This document shows positions 7,077 through 21,196 of a DNA stretch of 64,000 nucleotides, one piece after another (the first letter of the stretch is position 1; each line of letters begins with the position of its first letter). The notes below the pieces were generated by a model, which was not told where the DNA came from, did not search any database, and saw only the letters and a program-made list of their open reading frames with translations. A program made the translations under genes and the position numbers. Source of the DNA: Roseithermus sacchariphilus. Lineage in GTDB: Bacteria > Bacteroidota > Rhodothermia > Rhodothermales > MEBIC09517. Location of the stretch: contig CP030158.1 in the NCBI GenBank assembly GCA_003285105.1, positions 2,642,501 through 2,706,500 on the forward strand. The letters are read 5' to 3'.

Positions 7077-7856
7077 TCAGGCAGCCTGGCGGGCGTCGAG
7101 CCGGTCCAGTTCGTCCTGGATGATCTGCTGCAGCATCTCGAACGTTTCGTGGATGCGCCGGACGATGGCCGGCGCCTGCTCCAGCGAGCCGCCCCGGCTC
7201 AGCGACTCCAGCTCGGCGCACAGCTGCTGCAGCTCCCGCGCCCCGATGGCGCCGCTGCTCGACTTCAGCGTGTGGGCGGCCTCCCGCGTCTGGTTCGGGT
7301 CCGCCGCGCCCAGACCGGCGTCGATGCCGGCGAGCAGTTCCGGAGCCACGTTCAGGTAGTCGGTCAGGATCTCCCGGACGAAGTCCAGGTCGTCGCCGGC
7401 CAGTTCGGTGAGCTGAGTGCGGATGGTATCGATCATGGGTACGACGGGGATGGTGGTGTCAGATGAAGGAGACTCGGTGGATGCCGGGGCTGCGTCGGCG
7501 CGACGGGCGTCCCGGCAGCGGTCCAGGGCCGCCGCCAGCTCGTCCAGCCGCGTCGGCTTGCTGACATAGTCGTCCATGCCGGCTTCGAGGAGGCGGCGGC
7601 GGTCCTCCGGCATGGCGCTGGCCGTCATGGCCACGATGCGGGGCTGGCGATGGGCCGGCAGGGTGTCCCGGATGAGGCGGGTCGCCTCCAGCCCGTCCAG
7701 GTCCGGCATGTGCAGGTCCATCAGAACCAGGTCGTAGGCCTGCTGCTGCACGGCCTCGACGGCCTGGCGGCCATCGGCGGCGACGTCGGCCTGCGCTCCC
7801 AGCTTCGCCAGCATGCGCAGGGCCACCTGCTGGTTGACGCGGTTGTCCTCGGCCAC
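7077..7856 (-). CDS. Detached C-terminal part of hybrid histidine kinase: receiver domain plus HPt
   Basis: This frame carries a full second receiver domain (ILVAEDNRVNQQVALRML; phosphoacceptor Asp in LVLMDLHMPDLDG; MTAS; SKP) followed by a Glu/Ala linker and an HPt domain with the phosphorylatable His in REAAHTLKSSSGAIG. The first codon counted here is a GTG inside the receiver strand, so it is not a natural start. The same frame continues upstream to about 8000 as a Pro/Ala/Ser/Glu linker (PATPSEPASG, AEEASPAEASP). The preceding kinase reads out of frame by one base exactly at a C6 run. It therefore represents the 3' end of the kinase gene, translated only if the frame is restored. Confidence 0.75.
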   Translation of the reverse strand: MAEDNRVNQQVALRMLAKLGAQADVAADGRQAVEAVQQQAYDLVLMDLHMPDLDGLEATRLIRDTLPAHRQPRIVAMTASAMPEDRRRLLEAGMDDYVSKPTRLDELAAALDRCRDARRADAAPASTESPSSDTTIPVVPMIDTIRTQLTELAGDDLDFVREILTDYLNVAPELLAGIDAGLGAADPNQTREAAHTLKSSSGAIGARELQQLCAELESLSRGGSLEQAPAIVRRIHETFEMLQQIIQDELDRLDARQAA

Positions 7857-10800
7857 CAGGATGCGGAGCGAGGCGTGCTTCGCCGTGGAGGCCGGGGCGG
7901 GGGACGCCCCCTCGGTGGGGGAAGCCTCCGCGGGGGAAGCCTCCTCGGCGGGGGCGGTGGGGCCGGATGCCGGTTCGGAGGGCGTGGCCGGCCCGTCCGG
8001 GGGGTGGGAGCGGACTCGCCGGGGCCGGGCGTGGGCGACCGGGACAGGGCGGCGGCGAGGGTGCGGGCCAGGGCGGCCCGCCGGATGGGTTTGGACAGCT
8101 GGTCGGTCAGGCGGGGGTCGTTTTCCCGCCGGCCGAAGGGATGCATCAGGATGAGAGGCAGGCCCGGGTGCTGTGGGGCCATGGCGCGGGCCAGCATCAG
8201 CCCGTCCATCCGGGGCATGTGCCGGTCGATCAGCACGGCGTCACACGCCGGCGCGTCGTTCAGCCAGCGAAGGGCGGCGATGCCGCTGTCGACGGCCTGC
8301 ACCTGCATCCCCCAGGAGGCCGCCAGCTCCGCAAGGACCTCCCGGCTCACGGCGTGGTCGTCGACGATCAGCAGGTGGCGTCCCTGTAAGACCTCGGTGG
8401 GTTCAGGGCTGGCCTCTGCGGGCGGCTCGGTGGGGGTGAGGCGCAGGGTGACGTGGAACGTGGAGCCGACGCCTTCTTCGCTCTCGGCCCAGATGCGCCC
8501 GTCCATCAGCGTGCTGAGCCGGCGGCAGATCGCCAGCCCGAGGCCGGTGCCGCCGTACCGCCGGGTCGTCGAAGCCTGGGCCTGGCTGAACGGCTCGAAC
8601 AGCCGATCCAGCGCCTCCGGCGCCATGCCGATGCCGGTGTCGCGAACGCTCAGGTGCAGCTCCACCCGCCCATCTTCGAGCGGCGTGGCTCCGGCGGTGA
8701 GGACGACTTCGCCCGCCTCGGTGAACTTGACCGCGTTCGAGAGCAGGTTGTTGACGATCTGCTGTACCCGCGTCGGGTCTCCCGCCACGTACCGGGGCAC
8801 GTCCCCGGGGATGCGGCAGACCAGTTCGACGTCCCTGTCGGCGGCTTTGCCGGCGATGAGCTGCAGCGCGTCTTCCAGCAACGTGTGCAGGTCGAACGGA
8901 TGCGTCTCCAGTTCGATGCGGCCGGCTTCGATCTTGGAAAAATCCAGGATGTCGTTGAGGATCGTCAGCAGCGTCTCGCCCGAGGACCGGATGACATGGA
9001 CCAGTTCCTGCTGTTCGGCGTCGAGGGCGGTATCCAGCAGCAGCTCGGTCATGCCGATGACTCCGCTCATCGGCGTTCGGATCTCATGGCTCATCATCGC
9101 GAGGAAGTCGCTCTTGACGCGAGTAGCTTCCTCGGCCGTTCGCCGGGCTTCCTCGGCCGTCCGTCGGGCCTCCTCCAGTTCCTCGACTACCCGGGCCAGC
9201 TCGTTGGCCTGGGCTTCGTGCACCTGCTTGGCTTGCTCCAGGTCTTCCGCGTAGCGTTTCAGCGCCTCCTGGCGGTCGTGCTCCTCGGTGACGTCGCGGG
9301 CGACGCCCACCAGCCCGACGATCTCCCCGGACGGGTTGCGCAGGGGCACCTGGGTCACGCGCATCCAGCGGCTGAGGTTGCCCTGCTCGTCCAGGCCCTG
9401 ATGCGTGTGGTCGATGATGCTCGCACCGGTGCGGATGAGCTCCAGGTCCTCCTCGTAGTACGTCTGAGCGACCGATTCGGGGTAGAAGTCCAGCACCGTG
9501 CGCCCGATGACGTCCTCGAGCGAGGCGGCGCCGAGGCGGCGGAGGTGGGCGGTGTTGCACAGGACGTACCGGCCCACGACATCCTTGATGAAGATGGAGT
9601 CCGGCAGGGTGTCGATGAGGGTGCGGAGGAGGTTGCGCTCGGCTTCGAGGGCTTCCTCGGCGGCCACCTTGCTGCTGACGTCGCGGGAGGAGGTCTGCAG
9701 GCGGACGATGTCGCCCTCGTCGTTCAGGATGGCTCGCGTCAGCGTTTCCAGCCAGACGTACGAACCGTCGCGGTGGCGGAAGCGGTAGCGGACGGTGACG
9801 CCTTCCATCGGTGCCTCGCCGAGCACCGGGCGATGGGCGTGCTCACGGATGTGCTCCACGTCGTCCGGATGGAAATACGCGTAGGGGTTCTGTCCGATCA
9901 GTTCATCCGGCTCGTAGCCGAGCAGGTCCTTCACGGAGGGGCTGACCCAGACGTACGTGCCGTCGGGTTCGTGCAGGCAGACGAACTCCTGCATGTTCTC
10001 GGCCAGGAGGCGGAAGCGCTCTTCGCTGGCCTGGAGGGCCAGTTCGGCCTGCTTGCGCTCGGTGATGTCCAGGATCGTGCCGATGAGGCGGACCACCTGC
10101 CCGGCTTCGTTGCGGACGCCCCGCCCGCGCTCATGCACGTACCGGCGCGTCCCCGACGGGAGTTCGAGGCACAGGTCGAGCGCGTAGGCCCGGCCGGTCT
10201 GGATGGCGCGGGAGCGCGCCTGGTCGAGGCGGGCGCGGTCGTCGGGGGGGAGGCAGGCCAGCGCTTCGTCGAGCGGCGGGGGTCCGGCCTCGGGGGACCG
10301 CTCGAAGAGGTGGAAGACTTCGTCGGACCAGGTCAGCGCCCCGGTTTCGACGTCGAGCCCCCAGTCGCCGATGTGGGCAAGGTGCTGGGCTTCGCGCAGG
10401 CGGGACGAGCTCTGGCGCAGCTCGGCCTCGGCCCGTTTGCGCTCGGTGATGTCACGGATGGAGACGACGACCTCGTCGTCGTCCGCCCGCACGAGGCGGG
10501 CTTCGAAGTGCCGGGGGCCGTCGGGTCCGGGCAGGGTGTACTCCACCTGATCGACGTGCCCGGCGTGTCTGGCGTCGAGGGTCTGCTGGATGCGTTGCAT
10601 CAGCCGCGTGCCCTGCGGTGGGGGCCACAGTTCCAGCAGGTGGCGCCCAACGAATCCGTCGGCCGGGGCCGGCAGGTCGTCCTGGCGCCCTCCGTGGAAG
10701 GCGGTGATGAGGCCGTCCCGGTTCACCTGGACCACCGTGTCGGGCAGCGCGGTCAGGATCGCTTCGAGCCGGCGGACGGCGTGCTCACGCTCGCGTTCGA

Positions 10801-12799
10801 GCCGGCGGGTTTCCGTCACGTCGTGTTGCAGCCCGACGAAGTGGGTGATCTGCCCGGCCGGGTCGGTGACGGGGGCGAGGGTGAGGCGGTTCCAGAACGG
10901 CGTGCCGTCTTTACGGACGTTGCGCAGCTCGACGGTACAGGGCCGGCCCTGCCGGATGGCCTGGCGCACGGTGTCCAGCCCGTCTTGATCGCGGTCGGAG
11001 CCCTGCAAGAAACGGCAGTTCCGCCCGAGGATCTCCTCGGCGCGGTAGCCGGTCAGCGCTTCGAAGCCCTGGTTGACGAAGATGAGCGGGAGGTCCGGCT
11101 GGCGGGCATCGGCGACGGCGATGCCGGTGGGGCTGGCGTGCAGGATGCGTTCGTAGAGATGGAGTCGGGCCTCGATCTCGGCGCGGTCGCCCACGGGCTG
11201 GGCCGTCATCAGGCGGCCGCGGAGGTGGGGGTGGGTGCGCAGATCGTGCCAGCGGACCGAGAGCGGCACCCACCGCCCGTCCGCCGTGCGGATGCGACAG
11301 GCCGGCGGCATCGGGTCCGTGGCGAGGTCGTCCGGGTGGATCAGTTCCGGGAACGGCCGCCCCACCAGATCCGGCAGGGCGTAGCCCAGCCGCCGTTCCA
11401 TCGCCGGGTTGGCATATCGGATGCGGCCGTCGTCGTCGAGGAGGGCGACCAGCTCCGTGACGTGGTCGAGCAGCGTGCGGTACTGTGCTTCCCGCTGTTG
11501 CAGGGCGTCTTCGCTGCGTCGCTGCTCGGTGACGTCGCACAGCGAGAGGTGCACGCCGCGGACGGCGGTGCCGTCGTGGATGGGGGCGTAGGTCGCATCC
11601 AGCCACACGGTGAGTTCGCCGGCGTCGATCGTGTGGACGGCGTGCGACGTCTCACCGCCGAGGGCCTGGTCGATGTACCGGCGGACGGGGTCGCGCAGGG
11701 CTTCCGGCAGGGCCGCTTCGAGGAGGGTGCCCGGTTCCGGCGTGTGGCCGAAGTGCTGTGCGGCCAGGGTTTCGGCCGCCGCGTTGAGCGTCTCGATGCG
11801 TCCTTCGGGATCGAGCAGGAACACGGCCCGGGAACGGCTCGCCAGCAGGGTGCGCAGGTACGTGCCGGTCGTGGACAGCTCCCGGCGGGTCGCCTCCAGC
11901 TTCATCTGCTGGGCCACGGTCCCCGCGATGAGCTGGAGGGTGGACAGGAGGCTTTCGGAGGCCGGGCGGCTCCGCTCGTCGGCCAGGGTCAGCACGCCCA
12001 GGATCTCGTCGCCGGCCTTGATGGGCAGGCTGATGAGCGTCTGGAGGGGGCGATCCCCGAGGGCCGGGTGGTGGGTCGGGGCGGCGTCCTGCGGTCCGGG
12101 GAGGACCAGCCGCCGGCCGGTGCGGGCCGTCTGCCCGGTGACGCAGGCCTCGGCCGCACAGGGGGGGAGGTCCGCCGCGTCCACCCCGTGGGCGCCGAGC
12201 AGGTGCAGCGTGCCGGTCCCGGCGTCGTAACGTTCCAGGAGGCACACCGGGAAGCCGAGCTGGACGCCGATCAGCCGGGGGATCGTGCGGCCGATCGGCG
12301 CCAGGCCGTCGCTGTTCAGGCACAGCTGGCTGACGACGCGGAGGATCTCCTGTCCGGCATCGGCCTGCCGGGCGTCGGTGAGGGGCGTGGCGGTGGCATA
12401 GAACCACGTGCCGTCATCGTGGGGCGTGAACGACCACGAGAGCCACGCCCAGGAGCCGTTCCGGTGGCGGAGGCGGAGGTCGATGCGGGTGCTCTGGGGG
12501 CGTTCCCGCAACGCAGCCCAGCGGGCTTCGAGGGCCGGTCGGTCCTCGGGATGGACGAACGCTGTCAGCGGCTGCCCGGTCAGCTCGTCTCCGGCGTGGG
12601 CGAGGGCTTCCTGAAAGGCCGGGTTGGTGCGATGGATCGTGCCCTCGGCATCCAGCACCGCGAGCAGATCCCGGGAGAGGTCGAAGAAGCCCGGTGGATC
12701 CGTTCGGAGGGGGGCAGGGCGGTCGTTCGAGGCAGGAGGCCGGTGCAGCGATTCGTTTTCCGCTCGCAGGTGCTCGGGCGGCAGATCCGGAGCTTGCAT
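7721..12799 (-). CDS. Multi-PAS/LOV hybrid sensor histidine kinase, frameshifted near its 3' end
   Basis: Start ATG 12799 is preferred; an ATG at 12880 would add 27 residues. Order, numbered from 12880: PAS 65-165, GAF 175-335, PAS 345-450, PAS 465-560, LOV 578-690, four more PAS to about 1198, coiled coil 1205-1255, HisKA with MMSHEIRTP (His1265), HATPase with NNLLSNAVKF, DTGIGM and GGTGLGLAI, and receiver 1502-1612 (Asp1552). The LOV domain has GRNCRFLQG with the flavin-adduct Cys622, WN in DGTPFWNRL and the Gln in VGLQHDVTE. No transmembrane segment is seen, so it should be cytoplasmic. After about residue 1626 the frame becomes Pro/Arg noise and stops at 7721; the true second receiver and HPt lie one base off, behind CCCCCC at 7999-8004. 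Rejoined length would be about 1,907 residues. Confidence 0.88.
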   Translation of the reverse strand: MQAPDLPPEHLRAENESLHRPPASNDRPAPLRTDPPGFFDLSRDLLAVLDAEGTIHRTNPAFQEALAHAGDELTGQPLTAFVHPEDRPALEARWAALRERPQSTRIDLRLRHRNGSWAWLSWSFTPHDDGTWFYATATPLTDARQADAGQEILRVVSQLCLNSDGLAPIGRTIPRLIGVQLGFPVCLLERYDAGTGTLHLLGAHGVDAADLPPCAAEACVTGQTARTGRRLVLPGPQDAAPTHHPALGDRPLQTLISLPIKAGDEILGVLTLADERSRPASESLLSTLQLIAGTVAQQMKLEATRRELSTTGTYLRTLLASRSRAVFLLDPEGRIETLNAAAETLAAQHFGHTPEPGTLLEAALPEALRDPVRRYIDQALGGETSHAVHTIDAGELTVWLDATYAPIHDGTAVRGVHLSLCDVTEQRRSEDALQQREAQYRTLLDHVTELVALLDDDGRIRYANPAMERRLGYALPDLVGRPFPELIHPDDLATDPMPPACRIRTADGRWVPLSVRWHDLRTHPHLRGRLMTAQPVGDRAEIEARLHLYERILHASPTGIAVADARQPDLPLIFVNQGFEALTGYRAEEILGRNCRFLQGSDRDQDGLDTVRQAIRQGRPCTVELRNVRKDGTPFWNRLTLAPVTDPAGQITHFVGLQHDVTETRRLEREREHAVRRLEAILTALPDTVVQVNRDGLITAFHGGRQDDLPAPADGFVGRHLLELWPPPQGTRLMQRIQQTLDARHAGHVDQVEYTLPGPDGPRHFEARLVRADDDEVVVSIRDITERKRAEAELRQSSSRLREAQHLAHIGDWGLDVETGALTWSDEVFHLFERSPEAGPPPLDEALACLPPDDRARLDQARSRAIQTGRAYALDLCLELPSGTRRYVHERGRGVRNEAGQVVRLIGTILDITERKQAELALQASEERFRLLAENMQEFVCLHEPDGTYVWVSPSVKDLLGYEPDELIGQNPYAYFHPDDVEHIREHAHRPVLGEAPMEGVTVRYRFRHRDGSYVWLETLTRAILNDEGDIVRLQTSSRDVSSKVAAEEALEAERNLLRTLIDTLPDSIFIKDVVGRYVLCNTAHLRRLGAASLEDVIGRTVLDFYPESVAQTYYEEDLELIRTGASIIDHTHQGLDEQGNLSRWMRVTQVPLRNPSGEIVGLVGVARDVTEEHDRQEALKRYAEDLEQAKQVHEAQANELARVVEELEEARRTAEEARRTAEEATRVKSDFLAMMSHEIRTPMSGVIGMTELLLDTALDAEQQELVHVIRSSGETLLTILNDILDFSKIEAGRIELETHPFDLHTLLEDALQLIAGKAADRDVELVCRIPGDVPRYVAGDPTRVQQIVNNLLSNAVKFTEAGEVVLTAGATPLEDGRVELHLSVRDTGIGMAPEALDRLFEPFSQAQASTTRRYGGTGLGLAICRRLSTLMDGRIWAESEEGVGSTFHVTLRLTPTEPPAEASPEPTEVLQGRHLLIVDDHAVSREVLAELAASWGMQVQAVDSGIAALRWLNDAPACDAVLIDRHMPRMDGLMLARAMAPQHPGLPLILMHPFGRRENDPRLTDQLSKPIRRAALARTLAAALSRSPTPGPGESAPTPRTGRPRPPNRHPAPPPPPRRLPPRRLPPPRGRPPPRPPRRSTPRSASWWPRTTASTSRWPCACWRSWERRPTSPPMAARPSRPCSSRPTTWF

Positions 12800-12962
12800 A
12801 AGGAGAAAAAGGGGGTGCGCACAGGAAAAGAACTCCGGAGGAGACGGGTCTCCTTCGCAGATGCGGGGGTGCTCCGGCATCCGTCAAAATGAGTGCCACT
12901 TTCCCCTTCGTGCGCCGGTGTTGCCGGGCGCGGCGGCATGCGTCACCGGGTGGCGAGGCGCG

Positions 12963-19740: not shown

Positions 19741-20996
19741 TCAACTCGCCATGCGAGCCAGCCGCAGGTAGTCCGAGGGGATGGGGGTATGAAGGCGCCA
19801 GATCACGTTCATCGGGCGTGCACCCTCATGGCGCACGTAATCGGCGGCGCCCAGGAACAGGTAGGGCATCGTTTCTCCACGCTCGTCGCGTTTCGTGGTG
19901 CGGATGAACAGGAGCGGCGTGATGCCCCGTTCGCGATGGTTGATGTGTCGCCGGCCCTTGGTCGTTTCCGGGCGCGTGGTGCTCTGGGATTGCCAGTGGA
20001 ATTCCGTGGGCGAGAGGGCGTATCGAGGATCTCCTGCTGGAAAGGGTACGGGCGGATGTCGAAGAACGAGAGGGCCGTGTCGTCTTCACCCCCCTGTTCG
20101 CGTTGGGTCGCTGTATCGAAGCGGCGGCGGTCTTCGTCGGTTGCGCGATACGGGACGAACTCGGGGTCTTCCCAGTAGGTGTCGAACGTCGCCTCGAACT
20201 TGTGCAGGATCTGCGGGGCGTCGATGGTCGAGACGCGGACGTTCCACTCGAGCCCGTCGAGCTGGGCAGCGGCCGAAAGGTTCGAGGAGCCGATGTAGGC
20301 CGTCGAGAAGCCCGTCTCGCGGTGGAAGAGCCAGGCCTTGGCATGCAGGCGAGTTCGCCGCGTGTCATAGGACACCTTCACGTCGGCGCCCATTCGGACG
20401 AGTTCGTCCAGGGCACGTCGATCCGTGGCGCCCAGGTACACCGTCGTGATGACCCGCACGCGTTTGCCGGCGGTGAGGGCGTCGGCGAGGGCCGCTCTCA
20501 GCAGCCGCAGCCCCGACCACTTCACGAAGGAGCAGAGCAGGTCGATGCGGTCGGCGGACCGGATTTCCTTGATCACCTCATGTCCCACCCGGTACTCCCC
20601 TCGTGCGTTGACGAGCAGCGCCGATTGAGAGAGAGGAATGCCCGGCCGAGGTGGGGGCGACGCCGGCGCCAGGCCAGCATTCCGGCGCGGCAGCATGGCT
20701 TCCAGCAGCTGCTGTGTCACGAAGTCTTCCCGGGAGAACGCCCCCGGGAATTCATCGGCGAGCAGTGCAAGGATGCGATTGGTGAGCGCGACCTGGCGTT
20801 CCAGGCGCTGCGAGTGGGAGTAGGCCTGCAGGGCTGCCAATAAAAGCCGGTAGAGATGCCGACTGAGGAAGAGATGGGCTTCGTCCGGGTCCAGCGTACT
20901 GATCGTCGCGAGGAGTGCATCCGCCTGTTTCAGGCTTTCAGCGAGTCCTTCCGTCAGGATCTCTTCATAGAGACCGGGATGCAGAGAGTCAGGCAT
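19741..20996 (-). pseudogene. Remnant of PLD-DEAD-DUF3427 helicase with large internal deletion
   Basis: ATG 20996 opens a normal family N-terminus (MPDSLHPGLYEEILTEGLAE) and an intact PLD-like domain with HAKAWLFH and YIGSSNLSAAA (about residues 220-250). The chain then reaches the first residues of the helicase domain, PYPFQQEIL. Directly after this the DNA encodes, in another frame, the extreme C-terminus of DUF3427: YALSPTEFHWQSQSTTR, RERGITPLLFIRTTKRDERG, MPYLFLGAADYV, then a stop at 19741. All helicase motor motifs, roughly 500-600 codons, are missing. In the PLD frame the product ends at 19809 with a junk tail. This gene type is a common defence-island component. Confidence 0.85.
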
Positions 20997-21196
20997 GCAA
21001 CCGGTTCGACGTGGTCCTGGCACGCCGGCCGAGGCCGGCACGGTGCCGTAGGTCATGCGCAGGCTGTGGAACGTCAGTGACGTGGAGAGTATAGTCAGCC
21101 GGCGGTCCTTTCGAAAGAGCGGGCCTTCAGGTAGCGGATGGCTGAACCGAAGAGGCTATGACGAAAAAACCGGTATGCCATGACGCGAACCGGGTG

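Follow-up and report, generated by a model that had tools for sequence, protein, structure and literature searches.

A LOV domain in a multi-sensor hybrid histidine kinase of Roseithermus sacchariphilus, with a frame break after the first receiver in the deposited gene

Introduction

The locus described here raises two connected questions: whether one of the PAS-type units of a very large sensor kinase is a LOV domain through which blue light could enter signalling, and whether phosphate from this kinase could pass along a relay encoded in a single protein. Natural LOV-histidine kinases, some of them hybrid, include Brucella LOV-HK and proteins of Pseudomonas and Xanthomonas (PMC4438053, PMC8282871). 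The window, by which we mean the whole 64,000-nucleotide stretch that was analysed, comes from the single contig of the Roseithermus sacchariphilus genome, and an earlier note on it had proposed a giant hybrid kinase with a LOV domain and a His-Asp-His-Asp relay, encoded at 7077-12799.

Results

Domain organization of the kinase locus

The features of the locus are collected in Table 1. In comparisons with Pfam and NCBIfam, the kinase ORF was found to contain eight PAS-type stretches (PAS_4 and TIGR00229 each match eight) and one GAF domain, together with HisKA, HATPase_c, and one receiver in a single frame, which bears out the count of eight PAS-type units, the LOV unit included, plus a GAF given in the earlier note. 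The ATG at 12799, which that note had taken as the start, is an internal, in-frame codon and a possible start of the ORF.

Table 1. Features of the kinase locus, in positions of the window.
Feature	Position	Strand	Remarks
Multi-sensor kinase ORF	7721..12880	minus	1719 aa as deposited
PAS unit 1	12371..12694	minus	limits approximate
GAF domain	11906..12286	minus	aa 199-325
PAS units 2 and 3	11186..11848	minus	limits approximate
LOV domain (fourth PAS-type unit)	10811..11155	minus	aa 576-690
Adduct-forming Cys codon	11015..11017	minus	TGC, aa 622, in GRNCRFLQG
PAS units 5 to 8	9284..10768	minus	between LOV unit and kinase
HisKA	8921..9115	minus	phospho-acceptor His in MMSHEIRTPM
HATPase_c catalytic domain	8435..8782	minus	N and G boxes present
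Receiver REC1	8069..8371	minus	LIVDD, LIDRHMPRMDG, and SKP motifs
Frame break	8000..8016	minus	third-position G+C and codon usage change frame
Out-of-frame C-terminal tail of the kinase ORF	7999-7721	minus	~91 aa
Receiver REC2	7524..7862	minus	other frame than kinase
HPt domain	7125..7373	minus	AAHTLKSSSG; other frame than kinase

With HisKA, HATPase_c, and REC1 on one polypeptide, the protein is a hybrid histidine kinase. It is not, as deposited, a HK-REC-REC-HPt relay in a single protein, since the kinase frame does not run on into REC2 and HPt; the proposal of a four-step relay on one polypeptide is therefore not supported by the deposited sequence. The coordinates 7077-12799, read as one gene, in fact span two reading frames with a break that had gone unmentioned, and the REC2-HPt frame ends at a stop codon at 7079. 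REC1 retains its phospho-acceptor Asp, and its switch position is occupied by His-Pro (LILMHPFG) instead of the usual Ser/Thr. No membrane segment was found in the kinase, and so it is probably soluble, as far as its sequence tells. No response regulator gene adjoins the kinase gene.

The LOV domain

The motif GRNCRFLQG, with the adduct-forming Cys, lies on the minus strand at exactly the position that had been reported, and it was the only match to GxNCxFLQ in the six frames of the window. Both flavin-contacting Asn residues are present in LRN-VRKDGTPFWN, although the first of them stands just before the string VRKDGTPFWN in which the pair had been placed, and the switch Gln is present in VGLQHDVTE, as had been stated. 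When the LOV unit (aa 572-706) was compared with solved proteins, the best match was PF5-LOV (137 bits, E 2.6e-39), followed by a LOV domain from a histidine kinase of Meiothermus ruber and then by PpSB1-LOV and plant and algal phototropins. The PpSB1-LOV chains aligned to the unit without gaps, and in this alignment N84, N94, and Q115 of the unit correspond to N85, N95, and Q116 of PpSB1-LOV. The flavin-pocket residues of PpSB1-LOV have been named (PMC5314338), and the unit retains C53, R54, L56, Q57, R61, R70, N85, N95, and Q116; the single pocket residue lost is Arg66, which is replaced by Leu, and there are four conservative changes relative to PpSB1-LOV (V19A, I69V, I99L, and I113V).

An AlphaFold model of the LOV unit, made with relatives, had a mean pLDDT of 83.6. 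Its best Foldseek match in the PDB was the Mrub_1259 LOV domain (E 3.3e-16), and the top matches were LOV domains. In LOV kinases, a DVT motif and a Trp clasp the J-alpha helix (PMC13322254), and both the D-V-T motif and the clasp Trp are retained here. Taken together, the GxNCRFLQ motif with the adduct Cys, the two Asn and the Gln, the PAS fold near solved LOV structures, the ungapped alignment to short-LOV proteins that photocycle, and the DVT/Trp clasp uphold the identification made in the earlier note: the kinase contains a LOV domain with its signature residues. It is very likely that this domain photocycles as a LOV domain; flavin binding, the photocycle, and coupling to the kinase are inferred.

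In PpSB1-LOV, dark recovery takes 23 min instead of 2471 min once Arg66 is replaced by Ile (PMC6047819). Because Arg66 is replaced by Leu in the unit described here, it is reasonable to predict that its adduct would recover within minutes to a few hours, nearer minutes than days.

The frame break at the six-C run

The break lies in the sequence CCC ACC CCC CGG, whose six consecutive C occupy about 8005-8000. Third-position G+C shifts frame at about 8030-8000, a codon-usage model puts the switch at 8016, and across the junction the codon usage remains coding, with only the frame differing. The in-frame product ends after REC1 with a 91-residue nonsense tail that is 31% Pro and 23% Arg, whereas the first 1600 aa of the ORF contain 7% Pro and 10% Arg.

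That REC2-HPt could be an independent gene was considered and rejected. The last upstream stop in its frame is at 8243, and no ATG, GTG, or TTG occurs in that frame from 8243 to 7856, a position already within the REC2 core; with no usable start before 7856, a separate gene could not make the whole of REC2. Paralogues in the same genome with the kinase-REC1-REC2 arrangement are in one continuous frame. Deciding the frame through orthologues failed, as none was found: outside its own genome, among 245 genomes of the class, the GAF-PAS-PAS region matched nothing at more than 67 bits, and a search of 114 genomes of the order gave none at 1e-20. The simplest reading, which we favour, is that of a single fusion gene in which the C run is off by one base, most simply through a homopolymer or assembly error. 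In G+C-rich genomes, long-read assemblies commonly suffer from indels at C runs.

The quality of the assembly was evaluated by a codon-usage screen for mid-gene breaks over 464 kb of the same genome, which is a single contig and 99.98% complete. Two other clear mid-gene breaks were found, one affecting an IS630-type transposase and the other a truncated gene, and a further candidate that was inspected proved to be an ordinary gene boundary. The screen does not support a high rate of assembly error, and its sensitivity is limited, given that a first, stricter version missed the break at 8016-8000. Assembly errors are therefore infrequent here, yet one per about half a megabase is ordinary.

The transposase (L049:9711-10637, minus) has its frame break between its two halves. 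The truncated gene (window 19809-21056, minus) encodes a phospholipase-D-like domain protein that stops soon after SFFDIRPYPFQQEILD, with continuation in poor codon usage; it resembles the front of a PLD-helicase gene of which the remainder has been lost.

The same low number of other breaks in a nearly complete, single-contig genome, together with the intact Asp of REC1, could instead mean that the frame break is real. The gene would then encode a shortened kinase of sensors, HK, and REC1 with a nonsense tail, REC2-HPt would be a dead remnant, and light would act via REC1 only or the relay would be broken. We regard this as a doubtful, though serious, alternative. Against it, the REC2-HPt motifs are intact in a frame of strong coding composition with no second break, so that any mutation must be recent, and a C-run indel would be a common kind of error in long-read assembly.

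A different reading of the same bases is slippage at the C run, with two products: a short kinase that ends with REC1, and a longer form that includes REC2-HPt. At the P site, CCC could pair again after slipping by one base, and the downstream frame is open and lacks a start codon of its own; however, CCC ACC CCC CGG is not a canonical tandem slippery heptamer, the six-C run is short, and there is no conserved copy for comparison. This reading is very improbable, and there is accordingly scant reason to expect the functional consequence it would carry, in which slippage at the six C would set the ratio of relay-competent to relay-deficient blue-light sensors.

Other light sensors in the genome

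No match to BLUF or to phytochrome PHY domains was found in the genome, and one match to photolyase/cryptochrome was obtained. A rhodopsin search of the genome gave no match, with the search controls equally silent. A second, degenerate LOV-like PAS unit is located at G000:C1:719576-719962, minus strand (L022:1571-1963), within a 681-aa kinase. It retains a Cys, in GRSCCDLQG, and the Gln, with Lys and Ser in place of the two flavin Asn residues (EKRRPDGSTAWSD).

Coupling of the LOV domain to the kinase

In the established mechanism of LOV domains (PMC6798134), light drives formation of a Cys-flavin adduct with protonation of N5, the Gln flips, and a twist travels along the helices. Applied to the kinase described here, blue light would generate a Cys-C4a adduct with protonation of flavin N5 and a flip of the Gln, and the DVT/Trp clasp with the J-alpha helix would transmit a twist along the chain of PAS units to the HisKA dimer. 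Of five linkers measured, each counted from the D[IV][TS] motif up to the first strand of the following PAS unit, four were 28 residues long and one was 30; the 28-residue spacing is consistent with an uninterrupted helical stalk that joins stacked PAS dimers. The LOV unit and HisKA are about 500 residues apart, with four PAS units between them, and because of this separation light would be a single input among several; the earlier suggestion that blue light is one among several inputs to the kinase is plausible, and coupling of LOV to the kinase may be weak or absent.

The same separation, and the fact that LOV flavins are reducible under physiological conditions and are possible redox sensors (PMC6798134), would be consistent with a LOV flavin that senses redox state or is uncoupled from the kinase, in which case light would not be a physiological input. 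This seems improbable, considering that the adduct Cys and the entire set of photocycle residues are conserved. Moreover, neither Asn survives in the degenerate LOV-like unit of this genome, and therefore the full conservation in the kinase LOV domain is not simply inherited.

The reading that, on balance, we judge to be rather probable as a whole is that of a soluble multi-sensor kinase with a canonical LOV domain as its fourth unit, originally a REC1-REC2-HPt fusion, in which the break is an assembly discrepancy. The gene would originally have been one fusion ending in REC1-REC2-HPt. As deposited, HisKA would pass phosphate to REC1 only, whereas if the frame is continuous there would be a HisKA-REC-HPt relay and then transfer to some separate response regulator.

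Discussion

LOV-hybrid kinases are already known, and some from thermophiles have been solved; the kinase described here adds a member. Among known systems, Mrub_1259, the Meiothermus ruber histidine kinase (PDB 9vf7, 9vf8), is the best structural and second-best sequence match; its LOV domain is 45-54% identical to the LOV unit and, as here, is located within a kinase. Cagg_3753 of Chloroflexus aggregans, the source of CagFbFP (PDB 6rhg and others), is named a "multi-sensor hybrid histidine kinase" and contains a LOV domain about 48% identical to the one here, a likeness judged from the LOV unit; many forms of this domain with pocket mutations have been solved. PpSB1-LOV and PF5-LOV, short LOV proteins of Pseudomonas, align with the LOV core here without gaps and have the same flavin-pocket residues except for Arg66, which is Leu here; they are without an effector domain, unlike this kinase. 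In the LOV hybrid kinases of Pseudomonas and Xanthomonas, as in Brucella LOV-HK, the sensor region is shorter than here and the LOV domain lies near the kinase. The closest LOV domains among named genomes (50-58% identity) were found in the Pseudomonas mendocina group, in its diguanylate cyclase/phosphodiesterase LOV proteins (L024-L038), which, to judge from their sequences, have an integral membrane N terminus and a GGDEF-EAL output, in contrast to the kinase here. A literature search for LOV in Rhodothermus gave nothing relevant.

If the LOV domain photocycles, it would give a large multi-sensor kinase, for which no orthologue was found among 245 genomes of the class, an input for blue light, and would offer a way to test signalling by one PAS unit through four others. 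The domain could also serve as an additional flavin-protein scaffold, and the frame break is relevant to expressing the whole relay from the deposited sequence.

Elsewhere in the order, canonical LOV domains are fused to SpoIIE-type phosphatase domains or are found in kinases of other layouts. Fusions of LOV to a SpoIIE-type phosphatase were observed at L002:1372-2673 and L027:562-1815, in a member of the same order and a Lewinellaceae MAG. A kinase of a Pirellulaceae MAG (L023:554-937) has a LOV-like GRNMRLLQG, in which Met takes the place of the adduct Cys and the other pocket residues are largely retained.
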